Shown here one piece after another: positions 13,719-52,952 of a stretch of DNA of 64,000 nucleotides (position 1 is the stretch's first letter; every line of letters begins with the position of its first letter). Made by a program: the position numbers and the translations under genes. The notes beneath the pieces are model-generated. The model made no database searches. It worked only from the letters and a program-made list of their open reading frames with translations, and had not been told where the DNA came from. Origin of the DNA: Actinomycetospora termitidis (lineage in GTDB: Bacteria > Actinomycetota > Actinomycetes > Mycobacteriales > Pseudonocardiaceae); NCBI RefSeq assembly GCF_030286555.1, contig NZ_JASVWF010000001.1, forward strand, positions 1,302,001 through 1,366,000, read 5' to 3'.

Positions 13719-15490
<1,772 letters not shown>

Positions 15491-15494
<4 letters not shown>

Positions 15495-15988
15495 CCCGTC
15501 GGGGTCAACTGGACCACCGGGATGGCGCGCTCGCCGGCCCAGGTCCGGTAGCGCAGCCAGCCGGGGTTGAGCTCGACGGCCCGTGCGAACCAGTGGTCCC
15601 GGTCGTCGCCGGTCAGCTCGACCGCGTGGTAGCGCCGTGACCGACCGTCGACCGCGACGTCGACCTCCGGGGTCGCGCGGACGTTGTGGTACCAGGCGGG
15701 GTGCGTGGTCTTCCCGAAATTCGCCGCGAGCACGATCAGCGCGGCGCCGTCCGGGATGCCCAGCACCGGGGTGGTCCGGGCGAGCCCGGTGCGGGCGCCG
15801 GTGGTGGTGAGTAGGACGACGGGCAGCCCGGAGACCCAACCGGAGAACGTGCTGCGGCCGTTCGTCGCCCGCACCACGACGCCGTCGATGCGGTGCAGGA
15901 CCCGGGCCGACAACCAGGCCAACGGTCGGCTGGTCGTGGCCGTGCGGATCGCGCGCCGCACCGGGTCGGCGTCCACGTAGCGGATCAT
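15491..15988 (-). CDS. Deazaflavin (F420)-dependent nitroreductase/quinone reductase family (Ddn-like)
   Basis: 165 residues from ATG 15988, preceded by a strong GAGGAG Shine-Dalgarno; upstream in-frame codons are rejected. The split-barrel family motif is clear: LPVVLLTTTGARTGLARTTPVLG and ANFGKTTHPAWYHNVRATPEVDV, which binds F420H2 in Ddn and relatives. These enzymes reduce quinones or nitro compounds at the membrane; the physiological substrate here is unknown. The gene ends 3' to 3' with the ABC-F gene, the two stops overlapping in CTAG. Confidence 0.85.
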
Positions 15989-16101
15989 CACGCTCCTCGT
16001 CGTCCCTCCTGACGCTACGCACGTGATCGTCGAGGCGGCATCCCGGGCGCGCCTGCGCCGCGGGGCGCCCGGAGGAGGCCCGCGATCCCGTCGGACCGCC
16101 G

Positions 16102-17262
16102 TCACCAGCGTTCGAGCCCGCCCCGTCGGACGAGCTGCGAGGCGATGACCCCCTGCTGGATCTCGTTGGTGCCCTCCCCGACGATCATCAGCGGGGCGTC
16201 GCGGAAGTACCGCTCGACGTCGTACTCGGTCGAGTACCCGTAGCCGCCGTGGATGCGCACGGCGTCCAGGGCGACCTCCATGGCGGTCTCGGAGGCGAAC
16301 AGCTTGGCCATGCCGGCCTCCATGTCGCTCCGCTTCCCTGCGTCGTAGCGCTCGGCGGCGTGCAGGATCAGCTGCCGCGCCGCCGTCAGCTTCGTGCCCA
16401 TGTCGGCGAGGTGGTTGCCGACCGACTGGTGCTGCCAGATCGGCTTGCCGAAGCTCTCGCGCTCCTGGGCGTAGCGCAGGGCGTCCTCGAACGCGGCCGT
16501 CCCCACCCCGAGCGCCCGGGCGGCGACCTGGATGCGGCCGGTCTCCAACCCCTTCATCATCTGCGCGAAGCCGCGCCCCTCAGTGTCGCCGAGCAGGGCG
16601 TCGGCGGGCACGCGCATGTCGGTGAAGGCCAGCTCGCAGGTCTCGACGCCCTTGTACCCGAGCTTGTGGAGGTCCTTCGAGACCTCGAGCCCGGGACCGT
16701 GCTCGACCAGCAGGATCGACACGCCGCGGTGCCGGGGCTCGGCGTGCGGGTCGGTCTTGCACATCAGCGCGATCAGCCCGGATCGGCGGGCGTTCGAGAT
16801 CCAGGTCTTCGAGCCGTTGACGACGTACCCGTCACCGTCACGGCGGGCCGTGGTCGTCATGGCCTGCAGGTCCGACCCGCCGCCGGGCTCGGTCAGCGCC
16901 ATCGTGGCGCGCAGCTCGCCGGTCGCCATCCGCGGCAGGTAGCGGTCCTGCTGCTCCTGGGTCCCGAAGGCCAGGATCAACTTGGCGACGACGGTGTGGC
17001 CGCCCATGGCGCCGGCCAGCGACATCCATCCGCGGGCCAGCTCGGCGGTGACGAGCGCGTAGCAGGGCATCGAGACCGGCGCCTCGCCCCAGGGCTCCGG
17101 GACGGCCAGCCCGTAGATCCCCATCTCCTTCATCTGCTCGATGAGGTCCTCGGGGTAGGTGTCGGCGTGCTCGAGCTCGTTGACCTGCGGCTTGACCTCC
17201 TTGTCGACGAACTCGCGGACGAGGTCGACGACGGCCTGTTCCTCGGTGTCCAGCGTGGGCAT
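16102..17262 (-). CDS. Acyl-CoA dehydrogenase
   Basis: 386 residues, full ACAD length. FAD-dependent alpha,beta-oxidation of an acyl-CoA. Family signatures: MALTEPGGGSDLQAMTT (about residues 120-136), WISNARRSGLIALMCKT, LHKLGYKGVETCELAF, and the C-terminal RIHGGYGYSTEYDVERYFRD and LMIVGEGTNEIQ. The GEGTNEIQ segment contains the usual catalytic Glu position. It is the third gene of a minus-strand operon (alcohol dehydrogenase, transporter, this gene) with gaps of 8 and 11 bases, so it probably acts after alcohol oxidation and CoA activation of the same compound. Confidence 0.93.
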   Translation of the reverse strand: MPTLDTEEQAVVDLVREFVDKEVKPQVNELEHADTYPEDLIEQMKEMGIYGLAVPEPWGEAPVSMPCYALVTAELARGWMSLAGAMGGHTVVAKLILAFGTQEQQDRYLPRMATGELRATMALTEPGGGSDLQAMTTTARRDGDGYVVNGSKTWISNARRSGLIALMCKTDPHAEPRHRGVSILLVEHGPGLEVSKDLHKLGYKGVETCELAFTDMRVPADALLGDTEGRGFAQMMKGLETGRIQVAARALGVGTAAFEDALRYAQERESFGKPIWQHQSVGNHLADMGTKLTAARQLILHAAERYDAGKRSDMEAGMAKLFASETAMEVALDAVRIHGGYGYSTEYDVERYFRDAPLMIVGEGTNEIQQGVIASQLVRRGGLERW

Positions 17263-45068: not shown

Positions 45069-46580
45069 TCATCGGCCTCCCCCGATCGACCGGCGGGCGG
45101 TCTCCAGCTCCACGGCGACCAGCGTGGCGCCGAGCCGGGGCGGGGTGAGGCTGCCGGGCCCGAGCAGGGCCTCGATCCGGTCGAGGCGCTTGTAGAGGCT
45201 CTGGCGCTGGAGGTGCAGGGCGTCGGCCGTCGCGGTCTTCCGGCCCAGGTGTCGCAGGTAGACGGTCAGGGTCTCGAGCAGGCGCCCGTCCCCGTCGTCG
45301 GCGGCGAGCAGGTCCCCGAGCTGGTCGTCGACGAACCCGGCGACCACCTCCGACCGGTCCAGCCCGACGAGCAGCCGTTCGACCGCCAACGCCCCGGCGT
45401 CGACGACGGCGGGGGTCCCGGCGGGCAGGCGCAGGTCGTGCACCCCGGAGGCGGCGACCAGCGAGCGGGCGAGGGCGGGCGCGTCGTCGGCGAGCGGCCC
45501 GACCACCAGGCGGGCGCCCTCGGGCAGGGTGACCGCGGCCAGCTCGGCGAGCAGGTCCGCGCGGGCCCCGGCGCGCGCGGGGAGCCCGACGACGGCGAGG
45601 TGCCGGCGGTCGCGGACCTGCGCGAGGACCCGTCGTCCCCGCCGGCGCAGGGCGGTCTCGACGAGCAGGGCACGCGGGGTCGCGGAGGCGAACGTGGTCA
45701 CCACGGCGACGTGGGCGCCGTCGTCGAGCCCGAGGCGGTCGGCGAGCTCGAGGTAGCGCGGTGACGCGGTCTCGCCCGCGAGCGCCAGGGTCAGCAGATC
45801 GCGCTCGGCGTGGTCGAGGGCGGTCGGCGGACGGCGACGCATGAGGGCCAGCCCGATCGCCTCGGGGGCCTTCTCGACGGCGGCGTCCAGCACAGCGGCC
45901 TCGGCACGCTCGCGGGGTCGCAGCGTCAGGATCGCGATCGTCATGCCGGTCACCGTGATCGCGGCGGACCAGACCTCCCCGTCGACCGGGCGGCCGTCCC
46001 GGCTCGTGTCGCCGGGAGCCGCGGCGACGACGTCCCCGGCCAGCGACGTGACGTCGACGTCCGCCGCGGTCTCGACGGCGAGCAGCTCGAGCAGCTCGTC
46101 GAGCTCCGCCCCGGCCCCGAGCGCCTCGACCAGGGTGTGGGAGATGCGGTCGAGCAGCTGCAGCCGGCGCACCGACGCGTGCGCGAGCTGGCCGTTGACG
46201 GTGCGGCACACCTCCACGAACGGCACGACCCGGCGGAGCTCGAGCAGCGGGAGCCCGAGCCGGTCGGCCTCCTCGCGCATCTCCGTGGGGACCTCCGGCA
46301 GCGCGTCGCCGGTCTCGACGGCGAGCGCGGCCACCGCACGGGCCGCGAGGTCGCGGACGTAGCGCCGACGCGTCGCGGCGCCCGCCGTCGCGAGCACGAC
46401 GCCGCCGACGAGGAGCAGCTCCCCGCCGTGCAACAGGTCGGCGATGTTGAGCACCTCGCTGGTGTGCACCCACGAGACCGGGGCGGACGCCCCGGAGCCC
46501 GTCGGGTCGCCCGCCACGACCACCGGGTCGGCCGCGGCGAGGCTCGGATCGCGAAGCACGTGTCCCAGCGGTAACGACAT
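45069..46580 (-). CDS. PucR family transcriptional regulator
   Basis: 503 residues from ATG 46580. N-terminal PucR ligand domain (LGHVLRDPSLAAADPVVVAG..., WVHTSEVLNIADLLHGGELLLVGG), a middle GGDEF-like CdaR region, and the C-terminal PucR HTH (LLETLTVYLRHLGRKTATADALHLQRQSLYKRLDRIEALLG). Family members sense purine breakdown products such as allantoin, or other nitrogen compounds. It is divergent from the permease-CE4-creatinase operon with 104 bases between starts, hence its likely regulator. Confidence 0.92.
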   Translation of the reverse strand: MSLPLGHVLRDPSLAAADPVVVAGDPTGSGASAPVSWVHTSEVLNIADLLHGGELLLVGGVVLATAGAATRRRYVRDLAARAVAALAVETGDALPEVPTEMREEADRLGLPLLELRRVVPFVEVCRTVNGQLAHASVRRLQLLDRISHTLVEALGAGAELDELLELLAVETAADVDVTSLAGDVVAAAPGDTSRDGRPVDGEVWSAAITVTGMTIAILTLRPRERAEAAVLDAAVEKAPEAIGLALMRRRPPTALDHAERDLLTLALAGETASPRYLELADRLGLDDGAHVAVVTTFASATPRALLVETALRRRGRRVLAQVRDRRHLAVVGLPARAGARADLLAELAAVTLPEGARLVVGPLADDAPALARSLVAASGVHDLRLPAGTPAVVDAGALAVERLLVGLDRSEVVAGFVDDQLGDLLAADDGDGRLLETLTVYLRHLGRKTATADALHLQRQSLYKRLDRIEALLGPGSLTPPRLGATLVAVELETARRSIGGGR

Positions 46581-46684
46581 GACGGAACGTCACCTCATCT
46601 CCTGGCGTCGGGGACATTCTGTCCCTCCTGACGACGAGGTGGCGAGGGCCACGCTCATCGGGTCACCAGCCGTGGGAGGCCCCG

Positions 46685-48178
46685 ATGAGTACGACCGAGC
46701 ACGTCCCGCCCCTCGACCGCGAGCAGGCCCTGCACCCGATCCCGGAGAGCGAACGCACCACCGACGTCTCCGCCCAGTTCTGGATCTGGGCGGGCGCGAA
46801 CATCGCCCCGATCAACTGGGTGCTCGGTGCCCTCGGGATCACCCTGGGGCTGTCGCTGGCCGACACCCTGATCGTGCTGGTGCTCGGCAACCTCGTCGGG
46901 ATGGCGCTCTTCGGGGTGTTCGTGCTGATGGGTCAGCGCACCGGGGTGACCGGGATGGTGCTCTCCCGCGCGGCGTTCGGGCGGCGCGGCGCCTACCTGC
47001 CCTCGGTCGTCCAGGCGTGCCTGGCCGTCGGCTGGTGCGCGGTCAACACCTGGATCGTCCTCGACCTCGTCATGGCGCTGCTCGGACGTCTCGGGGTCGT
47101 CGACCCGGAGGCCGCGAACATCGGCTGGCGGCTCGCGGTGGCGGCGGTGATCATGGCGATCCAGGTCGCGATCTCCTGGCTGGGCTACCGCGCGATCGCC
47201 GCGTTCGAGCGGTGGACGGTCCCGCCGACGATCGTCGTCCTCGTCGCGATGTCGGTCGCCGCGTGGTTCTTCATCGGCGTCGACTGGAATTACGCCGGCC
47301 CGGCCGGAGCGGTGCTCGTCGGGGGCGAACGGATCGCCGCGATGACGGGCGTGATGACCGCGATCGGCATCGGCTGGGGCATCACGTGGTTCACCTACGC
47401 CGCGGACTACTCCCGGTTCGTGAGCCGGACGATGCCGCGGCGTCGGCTCTACCTCGCGAGCACCCTCGGACAGTTCCTGCCGGTGGTCTGGCTCGGCGTG
47501 CTCGGCGCGACCCTGGCGACCCGCAACGGCGAGGTCGACCCCGGCCAGCTGATCGTCGAGAGCTACGGCGCGCTCGCGATCCCCGTGCTGCTGCTCGTCG
47601 TCCACGGCCCGATCGCGACGAACATCCTGAACATCTACACCGTGTCGGTGGCCGTCCAGGCCCTCGACGTCAAGGTCTCGCGGCGCACCCTCTCGGTGCT
47701 GGTCGGGATCGTGGCGATGGCCGCCGTGACGTTCTTCGTGTTCCAGAGCGACTTCGCGACGGTGCTCGACACCTGGCTCGTGGGCATCGTCGCCTGGATC
47801 GCGGCGTGGGCCGGCGTGATGCTCGTCCACTACTTCCTGGTCGCCCAACGGGAGATCGACCCGGCCGACCTCGTCGCTCCCGTCGGCGCGCGCCGGCTCC
47901 CGGTGGTGAACGGCGCGGCCATGCTCGCGTTCGCCGTCGGGGTGCTCGCGACGTGGCTGTTCATGGCCGGGCAGGTCCCCGCCCTGCAGGGCCCGCTCGC
48001 GACGGCGATGGGCGGGGTCGACCTCTCGTGGCTCGCGGGCGGGCTCTCGGCCGCCGCGGTCTACGCCGCGATCGGACCGGCCGCCCGCCGTCGCTTCCTG
48101 GCACGGCGGGACGGGGCCGGGTCGCCGTCCGTCGCCCCGGCCCGCCGTCCGGACGAGGACCCGGTGGTGACGTCGTGA
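46685..48178 (+). CDS. NCS1 family permease (cytosine/hydantoin/allantoin type)
   Basis: 497 residues, about 12 membrane helices. The N-terminal RTTDVSAQFWIWAGANIAPINWVLGALGITLG (TM1) and GWGITWFTYAADYSRFVS match the purine-cytosine permease branch of NCS1, whose members import cytosine, hydantoins, allantoin and similar cyclic ureas by Na+ or H+ symport. In this operon the cargo is probably creatinine, creatine or a related cyclic compound. The stop overlaps the next GTG (GTGA). Confidence 0.9.
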   Translation: MSTTEHVPPLDREQALHPIPESERTTDVSAQFWIWAGANIAPINWVLGALGITLGLSLADTLIVLVLGNLVGMALFGVFVLMGQRTGVTGMVLSRAAFGRRGAYLPSVVQACLAVGWCAVNTWIVLDLVMALLGRLGVVDPEAANIGWRLAVAAVIMAIQVAISWLGYRAIAAFERWTVPPTIVVLVAMSVAAWFFIGVDWNYAGPAGAVLVGGERIAAMTGVMTAIGIGWGITWFTYAADYSRFVSRTMPRRRLYLASTLGQFLPVVWLGVLGATLATRNGEVDPGQLIVESYGALAIPVLLLVVHGPIATNILNIYTVSVAVQALDVKVSRRTLSVLVGIVAMAAVTFFVFQSDFATVLDTWLVGIVAWIAAWAGVMLVHYFLVAQREIDPADLVAPVGARRLPVVNGAAMLAFAVGVLATWLFMAGQVPALQGPLATAMGGVDLSWLAGGLSAAAVYAAIGPAARRRFLARRDGAGSPSVAPARRPDEDPVVTS

Positions 48179-49071
48179 GCGACCTCGGGTTCTCCTGGCC
48201 GGCGGGGCGTCGCGCGGCCGCGGCCTTCACCTTCGACGTCGACGCCGAGTCGTGCGCGCTGGCCCACGACCCGTCGTCGGCCGACCGCATGTCGCTGATG
48301 ACCCACCAGTCCTACGGTCCGCGGGTCGCCGTGCCCCGGCTGCTCGGCATCCTGGCCGACCACGGCGTGTCCGCCACGTTCTTCGTCCCCGGCTACACCG
48401 CCGAGCAGCACCCGGGGATGGTCCGGGCGATCGTCGAGGCCGGCCACGAGATCGGCCACCACGGCTACCTGCACGAGAACATGCTCGGGCTCGATCCCGC
48501 GGCCGAGGCGGCGGTGCTCGACCGTGGACTGGACGTGCTGCGCGACGTCGCCGGTGTGGTGCCCACCGGCTACCGCGCGCCCTGGTGGGAGATGAACTGG
48601 CACACGCCGGCGCTGCTGGCCGATCGGGGCTTCGTCTACGACTCGAGCCTGCTCGACGGCGACCGCCCGTACCGGATGGCCGCCGGCGCAGGCACGCTCG
48701 TGGAGATCCCCGTCGACTGGGCGCTGGACGACTGGGAGCAGTACGCCTTCTTCCCGGGCTGGACCGGCAGCGGCGTCATCGAGGACCCGGCCAAGGCCCG
48801 CGACCTGTGGGCCGGCGAGGCCCGGGCCCACCACCGCCTCGGCGGCTGCTTCGTCCTCACCAACCACCCCTTCCTGTCCGGTCGTCCCGGCCGGGCGACG
48901 GCGCTCGACGAGCTGATCGACCTCGTCGTCGGGTTCGAGGGGATGTGGGTGACCACGCTCGGCGAGATCGCCGAGCAGGCCCGCCGCACCTGCACCGACA
49001 CCTGGACCCACCACCGGCCGGAGCTCCCGGCCCCTGCGGGCGTCGTCCCGCACCGAGAGGAGAACCCGTGA
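48175..49071 (+). CDS. CE4/PuuE-like polysaccharide-deacetylase-fold hydrolase
   Basis: 298 residues from GTG 48175. NodB-fold metal site: AFTFDVDAES (D21, D23) and GHEIGHHGYLHENM (H96, H100). Further conserved pieces: SATFFVPGYTAE, GYRAPWWEMNWHT, VEIPVDWALDDWEQY. The long loops and lack of a secretion signal place it with cytosolic CE4 relatives such as PuuE allantoinase, which opens a hydantoin-like cyclic amide, not with cell-wall deacetylases. It is flanked by a hydantoin-type permease and creatinase, both overlapping it, which suggests it hydrolyses a creatinine-like ring. This function is inference. Confidence 0.75.
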   Translation: MSDLGFSWPAGRRAAAAFTFDVDAESCALAHDPSSADRMSLMTHQSYGPRVAVPRLLGILADHGVSATFFVPGYTAEQHPGMVRAIVEAGHEIGHHGYLHENMLGLDPAAEAAVLDRGLDVLRDVAGVVPTGYRAPWWEMNWHTPALLADRGFVYDSSLLDGDRPYRMAAGAGTLVEIPVDWALDDWEQYAFFPGWTGSGVIEDPAKARDLWAGEARAHHRLGGCFVLTNHPFLSGRPGRATALDELIDLVVGFEGMWVTTLGEIAEQARRTCTDTWTHHRPELPAPAGVVPHREENP

Positions 49072-50282
49072 ACCTCGAGCGGCTCAAGACGATCCACAAC
49101 GGCGCGAAGGCCGCGCCGACCTTCTCCCGCGAGGAGATGGACCGGCGTCTCGGCGACCTGCGCAAGTCCCTGGCCGACGCCGGCCTCGACGCGGCGCTGT
49201 TCACGAGCTACCACAACGTGAACTACTACAGCGACTTCCTCTACACCGCGTTCGGTCGGCCCTACGGACTCGTCGTCACCCACGACAGCCACACCACGGT
49301 GTCGGCCAACATCGACGCGGGCCAGCCGTGGCGGCGCAGCCACGACGAGAACGTGGTCTACACCGACTGGCGGCGCGACAACTTCCTGCACGCGGTCCGG
49401 GAGACGCTGGCGCGGGCCGGCGTCCGCGAGGGTCGGCTCGGGATCGAGGACGACACCGTGCCGCTGCGCCAGCGCGAGCAGCTGGCCGAGGCGCTCGGAG
49501 GCGAGCTCGTCGACGTCTCGCAGGAGGTGATGCGACACCGGATGATCAAGTCCGAGGAGGAGATCGCGCTCATCACCGAGGGCGCCCGGATCGCCGACCT
49601 CGGCGGCGCCGCCGTCGTCGGGGCGGTCCGCGAGGGGGTGCCGGAGTACGAGGTCGCACTGGCCGGCACCGCGGCCATGGTGCGGGAGATCGCGCGGTCG
49701 TTCCCGGACGCCGAGCTGCGCGACACCTGGGTGTGGTTCCAGTCCGGGATCAACACCGACGGCGCGCACAACTGGCCGACGTCGCGCACCGTGCGCCGCG
49801 GCGACGTGCTCTCGCTGAACTGCTTCCCGATGATCGCGGGCTACTACACCGCGCTGGAGCGCACGCTGTTCCTCGGCGAGCCGGACGCCGCGACGCTGCG
49901 GCACTGGGAGGTCAACACCGCCGTGCACCGCCGCGGCCTGGAGCTGATCCGGCCGGGCGCGGTCTGCGGGGAGATCGCCGCGGAGCTCAACGAGATCTAC
50001 GCGGCGGAGGGTCTGCTGGCGAACCGCACGTTCGGCTACGGGCACTCGTTCGGCGTGCTCTCGCACTACTACGGCCGCGAGGCCGGGCTGGAGCTGCGCG
50101 AGGACATCACGACGGTGCTCGAGCCCGGCATGGTCGTCTCGATAGAACCGATGATCACCGTTCCCGACGGCGAGCCCGGTGCCGGGGGCTACCGGGAGCA
50201 CGACATCCTCGTCGTCGAGCAGGACGGAGCCCGGAACATCACCGGCTTCCCGTTCGGACCCGAGCACAACGTGCTCGGCTAG
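49068..50282 (+). CDS. Creatinase (creatine amidinohydrolase)
   Basis: 404 residues from GTG 49068, practically the length of Pseudomonas creatinase (403). Hydrolyses creatine to sarcosine and urea. Pita-bread fold of the M24 family with creatinase-specific stretches: FTSYHNVNYYSDFLYTAFGRPYGLVV, NIDAGQPWRR, VYTDWRRDN, WFQSGINTDGAHN (H234), YYTALERTLF (E264), FGYGHSFGVLSHYYGREAG and VSIEPMI (E360), which line up with the known catalytic His232, Glu262 and Glu358. The five metal ligands of M24 peptidases are absent, as expected. Last gene of the PucR-linked operon; no sarcosine oxidase or urease is in the window. Confidence 0.93.
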   Translation: MNLERLKTIHNGAKAAPTFSREEMDRRLGDLRKSLADAGLDAALFTSYHNVNYYSDFLYTAFGRPYGLVVTHDSHTTVSANIDAGQPWRRSHDENVVYTDWRRDNFLHAVRETLARAGVREGRLGIEDDTVPLRQREQLAEALGGELVDVSQEVMRHRMIKSEEEIALITEGARIADLGGAAVVGAVREGVPEYEVALAGTAAMVREIARSFPDAELRDTWVWFQSGINTDGAHNWPTSRTVRRGDVLSLNCFPMIAGYYTALERTLFLGEPDAATLRHWEVNTAVHRRGLELIRPGAVCGEIAAELNEIYAAEGLLANRTFGYGHSFGVLSHYYGREAGLELREDITTVLEPGMVVSIEPMITVPDGEPGAGGYREHDILVVEQDGARNITGFPFGPEHNVLG

Positions 50283-50318: not shown

Positions 50319-51047
50319 TCACCCCAGCTCGCGCGCGATGCGCTCGGCGGTGGCGGTCAGCTCGCCGACCCACCCGGCGAGGCGGTCGCGTCGGAAGCGG
50401 GCGGTGGGCAGGGCGATCGAGAGGGCGGCGCCGGCCGGTCCGGGCACGGCGACGCCGATCGCGGTGAGGCCCTCCTCGGTGCGCCCGTCGTTGACCGCGA
50501 ACCCCTGGCGGCGGAAGCGCCGCAGGTCGCGCAGGAGCGCGTCGAGGTCGGTGACCGGGGAGTCCGGGCGGGAGTAGCGCGCCCGCACCTCGTCCTCGGG
50601 CAGGCCCGCGAGCACGGCCCGGCCGCCCGAGACCAGGTGTGCCGGCAGCACTCGTCCCTCGCGCTCGCCGACCCGGAGCACGTGGGTGCACTCGACCGAC
50701 GCGACGAACCGCACGTCCTCGCCGTCCACGACCATCGCGTTCGTCGTCTCGGCCACCGTCTCGGTGAGGGCCCGGAGGTGGGGGAGCGCGATCCGACGGA
50801 GCTCGGCGACCGGTTCGCTCGCCCGCGCGCCGCGCAGCACCGGGCCGGCGCGGTAGCGGCGGTCGGGGTCCTGCTCGGCGAACCCGCGGTAGACCAGCAT
50901 CGTGAGCAGCCGGTGCGCGGTGGAGCGGGCCACCCCCAGCCGTTCCGCGGCCTCGGACGGGCTCAGCGATCCCTCCTGCGCCAGGATCGCGGCGAGGTGC
51001 AGGGCGTGGTCGACCGAGCGGATGCGGTACACCGGCTCGTTCTGCAC
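50319..51047 (-). CDS. IclR family regulator
   Basis: 242 residues from GTG 51047; upstream in-frame sequence is not family-like. N-terminal winged HTH (VDHALHLAAILAQEGSLSPSEAAERLGVARSTAHRLLTMLVYRGFAEQDPDRRYRAGP), then the GAF-like IclR ligand domain (LRALTETVAETTNAMVVDGEDVRFVASVE; GRAVLAGLPEDEV; GFAVNDGRTEEGLTAIGVAVPG). Divergent from the aromatic monooxygenase gene, which it probably controls; a palindrome covers its own start codon. Confidence 0.9.
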   Translation of the reverse strand: MQNEPVYRIRSVDHALHLAAILAQEGSLSPSEAAERLGVARSTAHRLLTMLVYRGFAEQDPDRRYRAGPVLRGARASEPVAELRRIALPHLRALTETVAETTNAMVVDGEDVRFVASVECTHVLRVGEREGRVLPAHLVSGGRAVLAGLPEDEVRARYSRPDSPVTDLDALLRDLRRFRRQGFAVNDGRTEEGLTAIGVAVPGPAGAALSIALPTARFRRDRLAGWVGELTATAERIARELG

Positions 51048-51079
51048 GTCAGAACCGTACGGGGCATCCGGCAGAACCG
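51039..51079. promoter_or_regulatory. IclR operator candidate: GTTCTG-N5-CAGAAC plus second half-site
   Basis: GTTCTG (51039-51044) and CAGAAC (51050-51055) form a perfect dyad overlapping the IclR start; a second CAGAACCG (51072-51079) lies 22 bases from the first copy (51050-51057), two helical turns. Position and symmetry suit autorepression and control of the divergent gene. Confidence 0.65.
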
Positions 51080-51125
51080 CCGTAGCGTCGCCGGCGCATC
51101 CGCAGGTGACCCCGGGGAGTGGGAA

Positions 51126-52952
51126 GTGGCGCAGTTCTACGTCGACGGTTACCAGCCGGGCGACCCGTTCACGGCCGAGCCGCACCCGGCGACGCGGGAT
51201 CGCCCGGCGGGCCTGCCGGACACCGTCGACGTCCTCGTCGTCGGGTCGGGACCGGCCGGGTCCGTCCTAGCGGCGCAGCTCGCGGCGTTCCCGGAGCTGC
51301 ACACGCTCGTCGTCGACCGTCGCGACGGCCCGCTCGAGGTGGGGCAGGCCGACGGGATCGCGTGCCGGTCGATGGAGATGCTCGAGGCGTTCGGGCTCGC
51401 CGGGCGGGTGGCCGAGGAGGCCTACCGGGTCAACGAGGTCACCTTCTGGCGTCCGGACCCGGAACGCCCTGCGCACGTCACGCGGACCGGGCGCATCCCC
51501 GACGTCGAGGAGGGCCTGTCGGAGATGCCCCACCTGATCGTCAACCAGGCCCGCATCCTGGCGTTCCTCCGCGAGTACGCGGCGCGGTCGGCGGCACGCC
51601 TCGCACCGCGGTACGGCCTGCAGCTCGACGACCTGCGCATCGAGGACACCGGGGAGCACCCCGTCGTGGCGACCCTGCGCGACGGTGCGGGCACGACGTC
51701 CACCGTCCGTGCCCGCTACGCCGTGGGCTGTGACGGCGCTCGCAGCCGGGTCCGCACGGCGATCGGCCGCGAGCTGCGTGGCGACTCCGCGAACCAGGCG
51801 TGGGGCGTCATGGACGTGCTCGTCGACACCGACTTCCCGGACATCCGACTCAAGAGCGCGATCACCTCGTCGTCGGGAAGCCTGTTGATCATCCCGCGCG
51901 AGGGCGGGTACCTGGTGCGGCTCTACGTCGAGCTGGACGGCGTCCCCGAGCGGGGCACCGTCACACCGGAGACGCTCACCGGGGCCGTCAACCGCATCCT
52001 CGCGCCCTACACGCTCGACGTCCGTGACGTCGGGTGGTGGTCGGTCTACGAGGTCGGGCAGCGGCTCTGCGACCGCTTCGACGACCTTCCCGACGACAGG
52101 TCGGGTCGGGTGCCGCGGGTCTTCATCGCCGGCGACGCCTGCCACACGCACAGCGCGAAGGCCGGGCAGGGGATGAACGTCTCGATGGCCGACGGCTGGA
52201 ACCTCGGCTGGAAGCTCGGGGCCGTGCTGCGCGGGACCGCCCGCCCGGAGCTGCTGCACACCTACTCCGCGGAGCGGCAGCAGGTCGCGCAGGAGCTGAT
52301 CGACTTCGACCGCGAGTTCGCCGCGCTGTTCAGCGACCACTCCGGCGGGGCCGACCCGTCGGTCTTTCAGCGCTACTTCCGCGACCACGGCCGCTACACC
52401 GCGGGCTTCGGCGTCCGCTACGGCCCGTCGACGATCACCGCGGCCGTCCCGCAGCAGGACCGCGCGAAGGGCTTCGAGGTCGGCGCGCGGTTCCACTCCG
52501 CGCCGGTGGTGCGGCTCGCCGACGCGAAGCCGATGCACCTCGGCCACGTCGCCCGGGCCGACGGGGCGTGGCGGCTGTACCTGTTCGCCGACCGCGACGG
52601 GGCCGGGCTCCGGGCGCTCGCCGACCGGCTGGCCGTCCTGCTCCCGCGGTTCACCCCGGACGGCGCCGCCCCGGACGCCGTCATCGACGTCCGGGCGGTG
52701 TTCCCACAGCACCACCACGAGCCCGTCGACCTGCCTGCCGTCGTCCGGCCCCGGAAGGGAGCGCTCCAGCTGGTCGACCACGAGAAGGTGTTCTGCGCCG
52801 ACCTGTCCGACGACGTCTTCGACCGGCGCGGTATCGACCGGGACGGCGCGATGGTGCTGGTGCGCCCCGACCAGTACGTGGCGCATGTGCTCGCTCTGGA
52901 CGAGGACGAGGCCCTCGAGGCCTTCCTCGACGGGGCGCTGCGCCGGAGGTGA
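51126..52952 (+). CDS. FAD-dependent aromatic hydroxylase (phenol/3-hydroxybenzoate monooxygenase type)
   Basis: 608 residues from GTG 51126. Class A flavoprotein: FAD motif LVVGSGPAGSVLAAQLAA (about 39-56), DG motif GCDGARSRVRTAIG (about 202-215), GD motif FIAGDACHTHSAKAGQGMNVSMADGWNLGWKL (about 334-365), then a C-terminal thioredoxin-like domain (about 430-600) as in phenol hydroxylase and MobA. It uses NAD(P)H and O2 to hydroxylate a phenolic ring ortho to the hydroxyl. It is the only gene of its IclR-controlled unit; ring-cleavage genes are not nearby. It ends 3 bases from the convergent TetR gene. Confidence 0.88.
   Translation: MAQFYVDGYQPGDPFTAEPHPATRDRPAGLPDTVDVLVVGSGPAGSVLAAQLAAFPELHTLVVDRRDGPLEVGQADGIACRSMEMLEAFGLAGRVAEEAYRVNEVTFWRPDPERPAHVTRTGRIPDVEEGLSEMPHLIVNQARILAFLREYAARSAARLAPRYGLQLDDLRIEDTGEHPVVATLRDGAGTTSTVRARYAVGCDGARSRVRTAIGRELRGDSANQAWGVMDVLVDTDFPDIRLKSAITSSSGSLLIIPREGGYLVRLYVELDGVPERGTVTPETLTGAVNRILAPYTLDVRDVGWWSVYEVGQRLCDRFDDLPDDRSGRVPRVFIAGDACHTHSAKAGQGMNVSMADGWNLGWKLGAVLRGTARPELLHTYSAERQQVAQELIDFDREFAALFSDHSGGADPSVFQRYFRDHGRYTAGFGVRYGPSTITAAVPQQDRAKGFEVGARFHSAPVVRLADAKPMHLGHVARADGAWRLYLFADRDGAGLRALADRLAVLLPRFTPDGAAPDAVIDVRAVFPQHHHEPVDLPAVVRPRKGALQLVDHEKVFCADLSDDVFDRRGIDRDGAMVLVRPDQYVAHVLALDEDEALEAFLDGALRRR

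Follow-up and report, generated by a model that had tools for sequence, protein, structure and literature searches.

A CE4-fold hydrolase as a probable non-homologous creatininase in a putative creatinine-utilization operon of an actinomycete

Classical creatininase (PF02633/TIGR04448), which converts creatinine to creatine, is encoded in gene clusters together with creatinase, an NCS1 permease and a PucR-family regulator. In a 64,000-nucleotide stretch of the Actinomycetospora termitidis genome (RefSeq assembly GCF_030286555.1, contig NZ_JASVWF010000001.1, positions 1,302,001 to 1,366,000; hereafter, the window), the same neighbours accompany, in what is mostly the same operon slot, a CE4/NodB-fold hydrolase—a member of an unrelated protein family for which the context suggests the same reaction. 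Here, on the basis of comparative genomics, we propose that the permease, CE4 and creatinase genes constitute a creatinine-utilization cassette in which the CE4 protein is a creatininase by function and not by descent, a reading that we hold with a probability of about 0.88. The CE4 protein is most likely a non-homologous creatininase, and what is new is very probably a known reaction carried out by an unrelated enzyme.

The CE4/NodB fold has a described member that acts on a small cyclic ureide, the allantoinase PuuE (TIGR03212; structure 3cl6), which, going by the title of a 2008 paper, is said to be a precedent for this fold replacing an unrelated ring-opening enzyme. For a second structurally characterized member, Helicobacter pylori HP0310 (3qbu), the accessible part of its report makes the case that the site is buried and the substrate a small molecule (PMC3084791). 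The clusters described in Corynebacterium glutamicum ATCC 14067 and Arthrobacter share with the present system creatinase or creatininase, as well as a CreT-type major facilitator superfamily (MFS) transporter and sarcosine genes, but the accessible part of that account names a classical creatininase and an N-methylhydantoin route and no CE4 protein (PMC8864220). Arthrobacter Rue61a, which carries a creatine cluster, used creatine and not creatinine according to the part of its report available (PMC3534580), a growth pattern that, judged from the paper and not from the genome, would be expected of a creatine-only cluster. Among the papers listed by full-text searches of open-licence PMC literature, none ties a CE4 protein to creatinine, and an unseen report is possible.

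A CE4 protein that substitutes for creatininase should find its counterpart, creatininase, in the same slot of related operons, and this is what we observe. A scan of public genomes with a creatinase alignment gave at least 590 confirmed candidate loci, of which the best 80 were kept and searched with the window proteins and their neighbours. Two modules are evident in these loci: a creatine module (MFS transporter, creatinase and IclR regulator, often with sox, glyA and sdaA) and a second in which PucR and the NCS1 permease are joined by a single ring-opening gene. The window's NCS1 gene recurs in 28 of the 80 loci, with CE4 in 12, creatininase in 15, both in none and neither in one; the 52 loci that lack this permease include none with CE4, 10 with creatininase and 42 with neither. 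All 25 creatininases match TIGR04448 with E values of 1e-70 or better. The CE4 gene lies after the permease gene or overlaps it, on the same strand, in 12/12 loci (the called frames overlap by 587 bases in L062 and by 134 in L069, where calling or sequence errors are possible), and creatininase follows within 210 bases of the permease in 10/15. Where the NCS1 gene is present, PucR is encoded in 10/12 CE4-type and 15/15 creatininase-type loci. The chance probability of this mutual exclusion, 4e-7 with the exceptional locus L100 kept, ignores kinship, and we therefore rely on the count of switches between the two enzymes.

One such switch is visible in two Arthrobacter loci, from Arthrobacter sp. 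Leaf69 (L116) and Arthrobacter sp. 131MFCol6.1 (L087), which are colinear through the MFS transporter, creatinase, IclR, PucR and most of the permease gene (6,903 alignment columns, 83.2% DNA identity). The alignment ends at position 15267 of L116 and 15260 of L087, 83 and 74 bases before the respective permease genes end, and the next gene is creatininase in the former (15379–16182) and CE4 in the latter (15350–16321), where the locus ends soon after. By this alignment, the pair is a recent in situ swap of creatininase and CE4. A permease tree of 39 rows (19 CE4, 15 creatininase, 4 distant and 1 undecided) requires at least four changes between the CE4 and creatininase labels, and a creatinase tree of 46 rows (21 CE4 and 25 creatininase) at least five, numbers that are also forced by the starred branches; locus L065, taken as the same contig as genome G321, was left out of both trees and of the residue count given below. 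All 21 rows of creatinase-linked CE4 proteins fall into one clade (support 100/100), which indicates that a single CE4 type moved and that such proteins did not originate several times. The trees suggest that the CE4 protein and classical creatininase have been exchanged several times, and they are silent on which came first. Together, the exclusive distribution over the permease-bearing loci, the Arthrobacter swap and the four or five switches provide strong contextual support for the original prediction, made from the window alone, that the CE4 protein performs the creatinine-to-creatine step.

The pairing of CE4 with creatinase also holds across actinomycetes. Among 397 genomes of the order, searched at E ≤ 1e-80 for creatinase and E ≤ 1e-60 for CE4, creatinase was found in 13 and CE4 matches in 34. 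Every CE4 match of at least 66% identity (10/10) has creatinase no more than about 6 kb away, with several different gene orders and orientations, and 396 genomes of the phylum contributed one further match at this level (G438, 67%), whose contig carries creatinase at a distance of about 27 kb. The remaining 28 matches in the order (at most 63% identity) belong to genomes without a creatinase match, except for a second copy on a different contig of G321. CE4 matches are absent from three of the 13 creatinase genomes: G200 (an MFS transporter with creatinase, on the contig that also constitutes locus L059), G213 (where the contig breaks off within the permease gene) and G384 (a 5.6-kb contig). 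This confinement of the clade to creatinase genomes is left unexplained, as is its alternation with TIGR04448 creatininases without any locus having both, if the CE4 protein instead opens N-methylhydantoin or another cyclic ureide and creatinase serves a separate nitrogen-scavenging branch under the same regulator. The ring-opening product of N-methylhydantoin is, furthermore, a poor creatinase substrate. In favour of such a scheme, the only solved relatives that we found for the permease are the hydantoin permease Mhp1 and a cytosine permease, both weak matches, and genes for a flavin oxidoreductase and DUF1989 accompany more distant CE4 relatives (43–49% identity); the fold may therefore act on other cyclic compounds as well. 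We consider the N-methylhydantoin scheme improbable and favour creatinine as the substrate.

The window genome (6.56 Mb, 30 contigs, 97.7% complete) was earlier supposed to have no classical creatininase, and a genome-wide search bears this out: PF02633 has a single match, which is MftE of mycofactocin synthesis (299 bits on TIGR03964, cut-off 172; 84 bits on TIGR04448, cut-off 235) and which we rejected as a second creatininase. Extended to 24 genomes—21 with CE4 together with G200, G213 and G384—the PF02633 search gave 22 matches, of which 12 are MftE by BLAST (that of the window genome included), 8 reach 77–122 bits on TIGR04448 (cut-off 235) and also miss the MftE cut-off, and the remaining 2, both fragments from one genome, have no BLAST match to the creatininase or MftE set at 1e-5. 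A creatininase elsewhere in the genome, which the original prediction had named as evidence that would tell against it, was thus found neither in the window genome nor in the 20 further CE4 genomes (TIGR04448-grade matches in 0/21, with a completeness figure absent for 11/21). Conversely, none of 23 genomes with creatininase near creatinase (drawn from 25 such loci, with L110 and L122 left out) has a CE4 protein of the creatinase-linked clade at E ≤ 1e-40; one of them has only CE4 paralogues, at 45% and 42%. At E ≤ 1e-80, the window genome has a single creatinase. It also has two urease alpha genes and a sarcosine oxidase beta gene, which is 75% identical to one of a related creatine cluster and has glyA and a partial soxA match as neighbours. 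Because creatinase, sarcosine oxidase, glyA and urease genes are all found, the steps after creatine look complete, with creatinine to creatine as the step without a known enzyme.

Several observations weigh against a creatininase assignment. Both CE4 and creatininase are missing from locus L100, where the permease match is partial (37%); in G213 the permease is at a contig end and neither gene was found in its genome; and creatininase lies elsewhere in the cluster in 5/15 loci (L083, L091, L108, L121 and L123). The 80 loci are the best-scoring ones, mostly from Actinomycetota, and some are short contigs; completeness is not stated for 11 of the 21 CE4 genomes, of which two are small draft metagenome-assembled genomes (2.8 and 3.3 Mb); and an operator-like site is clear in only 5/11 CE4 loci. 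Finally, gene exchange implies the same cellular role, not the exact bond broken. The context says more about the product, through creatinase, than about the substrate, which would suit a CE4 protein that feeds creatinase from some other creatine derivative, such as glycocyamidine or an N-acyl creatine. Sister loci nevertheless pair the same permease and regulator with classical creatininase, and this fixes the substrate if those enzymes act on creatinine; we regard another creatine derivative as very improbable and retain creatinine as the likely substrate.

Within the window, the coordinates and Pfam assignments (Table 1) confirm the predicted arrangement of overlapping permease, CE4 and creatinase genes transcribed divergently from PucR. 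The overlap is four bases (GTGA) at both junctions, permease/CE4 and CE4/creatinase, and on this ground we treat the three genes as one operon. By sequence comparison, the M24-fold protein is unambiguously a true creatinase. It matches the solved structures 7yto, 1chm and 1kp0 over nearly its full length with E values of about 1e-160 or better, the next structure match being a proline dipeptidase at about 1e-24, and it has the creatinase N domain and the M24 domain (Table 1) and, by alignment to 1chm and 7yto, the active-site residues. His234, Glu264 and Glu360 align with 1chm chain positions 231, 261 and 357, which we take to be the creatinase residues His232, Glu262 and Glu358 that had been proposed to be kept.

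Table 1. Features of the putative creatinine-utilization locus and its immediate neighbour genes (feature, coordinates in the window, strand, evidence).
PucR-family regulator	45069–46580	−	PF07905 98.2 bits and PF13556 47 bits, both above cut-off
Candidate operator, perfect inverted repeat GGGACA-TTC-TGTCCC	46611–46625		PucR/permease intergenic sequence
NCS1 permease, putative creatinine importer	46685–48178	+	PF02133 162.1 bits (cut-off 23.5)
CE4/NodB-fold hydrolase, putative creatinine amidohydrolase	48175–49071	+	PF01522 68.3 bits (cut-off 23.1)
Creatinase (creatine amidinohydrolase, M24 fold)	49068–50282	+	PF01321 and PF00557, each above cut-off
IclR-family regulator	50319–51185	−	about 29–35% identity, where matching, to IclR after creatinase elsewhere
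Phenol-hydroxylase-type flavoprotein	51126–52952		

We infer a pathway in which the NCS1 permease would import creatinine and the CE4 protein, acting as a mononuclear metal hydrolase, would hydrolyse its cyclic amide to give creatine, with a metal-bound water attacking the cyclic amide carbonyl as in ordinary CE4 chemistry. Creatinase would then convert creatine to sarcosine and urea, and sarcosine oxidase, serine hydroxymethyltransferase and urease encoded elsewhere in the genome would complete the breakdown. PucR would probably control the operon through the inverted repeat upstream of the permease.

The CE4 protein returns only PF01522 and DUF2334 in a Pfam scan, and no match to the creatininase family (PF02633; TIGR04448 at E ≤ 0.001) was found in it by Pfam and NCBIfam scans. 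It scores 74.3 bits on the PuuE allantoinase model TIGR03212, for which the cut-off is 424.6; by these profiles, it lies outside both the creatininase and the PuuE families. An AlphaFold2 model (mean predicted local confidence (pLDDT) 78.7, predicted TM-score (pTM) 0.83; residues 36–44, 187–200 and 283–298 with pLDDT below 50) has as its best fold matches Mycobacterium smegmatis 3rxz (Z 32.2, root mean squared deviation (rmsd) 2.6, 270 aligned), 3s6o (Z 27.3), PuuE 3cl6 (Z 26.6, rmsd 3.0, 263 aligned), HP0310 (Z 26.5) and 1z7a (Z 26.4). The next match is ArnD at Z 19.8, with chitin and peptidoglycan deacetylases at about 18 and below; the nearest matches are small-substrate or unassigned CE4 members. 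The initial description of the protein as hydantoinase-like stands to the extent that its fold resembles that of PuuE, and does not extend to the classical hydantoinases, which are of the amidohydrolase type.

In HP0310, the ion ligands are His86, His90 and Asp14, and Asp12 and His247 hold a water, as given in the accessible part of the structure report (PMC3084791). Alignment places H96, H100, D23, D21 and H231 of the CE4 protein, respectively, at these positions, and all five residues occur in 41/41 CE4 rows from three groups, the window included, which is consistent with an Asp-His-His metal site with catalytic Asp and His. The first metal motif is within about 20 residues of the N terminus and, because it is so near, there appears to be little room for a signal peptide. 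The retained metal site separates the CE4 protein from PuuE, described as non-metal-dependent in the part of a further report that was available (PMC10967932), as does the gene context. These differences bear on a reading in which the CE4 protein is a PuuE-type allantoinase and the operon serves purine or allantoin use, with creatinase an accidental member. Although the fold match to 3cl6 and the purine connotations of the names PucR and NCS1 would agree with such a role, the creatinase match is unambiguous and none of the seven scanned flanking genes is a purine-use gene. On the PuuE score and the retained metal ligands we rejected allantoinase function, which we judge extremely improbable, in favour of creatininase function.

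Three residues distinguish the creatinase-linked CE4 proteins: C27, W137 and D181 are present in 21/21 of them and 0/20 others. W137 aligns with HP0310 Trp127. Position 181 is Gln in 8/11 and His in 9/9 members of the other two groups, and Asp in 0/20; D181 adjoins the equivalent of HP0310 Trp196, one of the side chains that obstruct ion access according to the accessible part of that structural account (PMC3084791). Our guess is that D181 holds the guanidine group of creatinine. The nearest solved relative, 3rxz, differs from the clade in having Pro, Met and Ser at the three positions. M. smegmatis, from which 3rxz comes, failed to grow on creatinine in one study, and its failure to grow on urea as well puzzled the authors (PMC4222082); because growth on urea failed in the same study, the creatinine result is weak evidence.

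Identity to the window protein is not a sharp mark of the creatinase-linked clade (65–79%, compared with 55–62% in the next group, with 63% found in both kinds), and we accordingly define the clade by tree and context rather than by identity alone. Loci were fetched for 20 of the 28 CE4 matches in the order that lie outside it. The tree does not establish the 55–62% group as a clade (two changes, with L175 a long branch there); an arginase-family gene adjoins CE4 in 9/11 of its loci (L162–L165 and L167–L171, 16 kb each; PF00491 in L167, the one scanned), eight of which also have an amino-acid permease and a short-chain dehydrogenase. Judged by these neighbours, the pathway perhaps concerns another cyclic guanidino compound. 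In the 43–49% group, the flavin oxidoreductase is of the Old-Yellow-Enzyme type and occurs with DUF1989 in 8/9 loci (L172–L174 and L176–L180), five having an amidase and four another NCS1 permease, which probably points to a further ring-opening pathway. The differing neighbours fit a family of small-ring openers with different substrates. A tentative, on balance doubtful, extension would be that this sub-tree comprises metal-dependent enzymes that open small cyclic amides and that were enlisted on separate occasions to supply guanidine-cleaving enzymes—creatinase here, an arginase-family enzyme beside the 3rxz-type group, which would open another cyclic guanidino compound—with D181 binding the creatinine guanidine.

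A regulatory site may also be common to the two kinds of locus. The core GACANNNTGTC, with at most one mismatch, occurs in 12/13 creatininase-type and 5/11 CE4-type PucR/permease gaps (4/10 without the window), against mononucleotide-shuffle expectations of 0.97 and 0.49, respectively; the pattern was taken from the window and fixed after a first look at the gaps. Loci L100, L083 and L091 (the latter two having no adjacent divergent pair) and L063 and L065 (no PucR found) were left out of this count. The distribution suggests that CE4-type and creatininase-type loci share a regulator site, weakly so for the CE4 loci.

Kidney function is routinely judged from blood creatinine, its standard marker, which is assayed with creatininase, creatinase and sarcosine oxidase, so a new creatininase scaffold would have practical use. 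If our assignment is correct, creatininase has arisen two or more times, and one form goes under the annotation ‘polysaccharide deacetylase’, such that creatinine use will have been overlooked in actinomycetes carrying the CE4 type. The repeated exchange of unrelated enzymes within a conserved cluster would be an unusually clean example of non-orthologous gene displacement, and the comparison points to testable functions for the group of 3rxz, the structure of which is solved and the function unassigned.

Two related clusters (L021 and L023) bring together creatinase, IclR, PucR, NCS1 and CE4 genes with sarcosine oxidase subunits, glyA and sdaA, a creatinine-to-pyruvate gene set within about 15 kb. 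A CodB-like NCS1 permease takes the place of the usual one beside CE4 and creatinase in L019 and L025, and beside creatininase and creatinase in L110 (Oceanobacillus salinisoli); it seems that the importer, too, can be exchanged. The seven scanned genes that flank the window operon encode two MFS transporters, a luciferase-like monooxygenase, an FMN reductase, the phenol-hydroxylase-type flavoprotein, a TetR regulator and a P450. The IclR gene downstream of creatinase was considered as part of the system and rejected on its low identity to the IclR proteins that follow creatinase elsewhere (Table 1); it adjoins the phenol-hydroxylase-type flavoprotein gene, with which it probably belongs.

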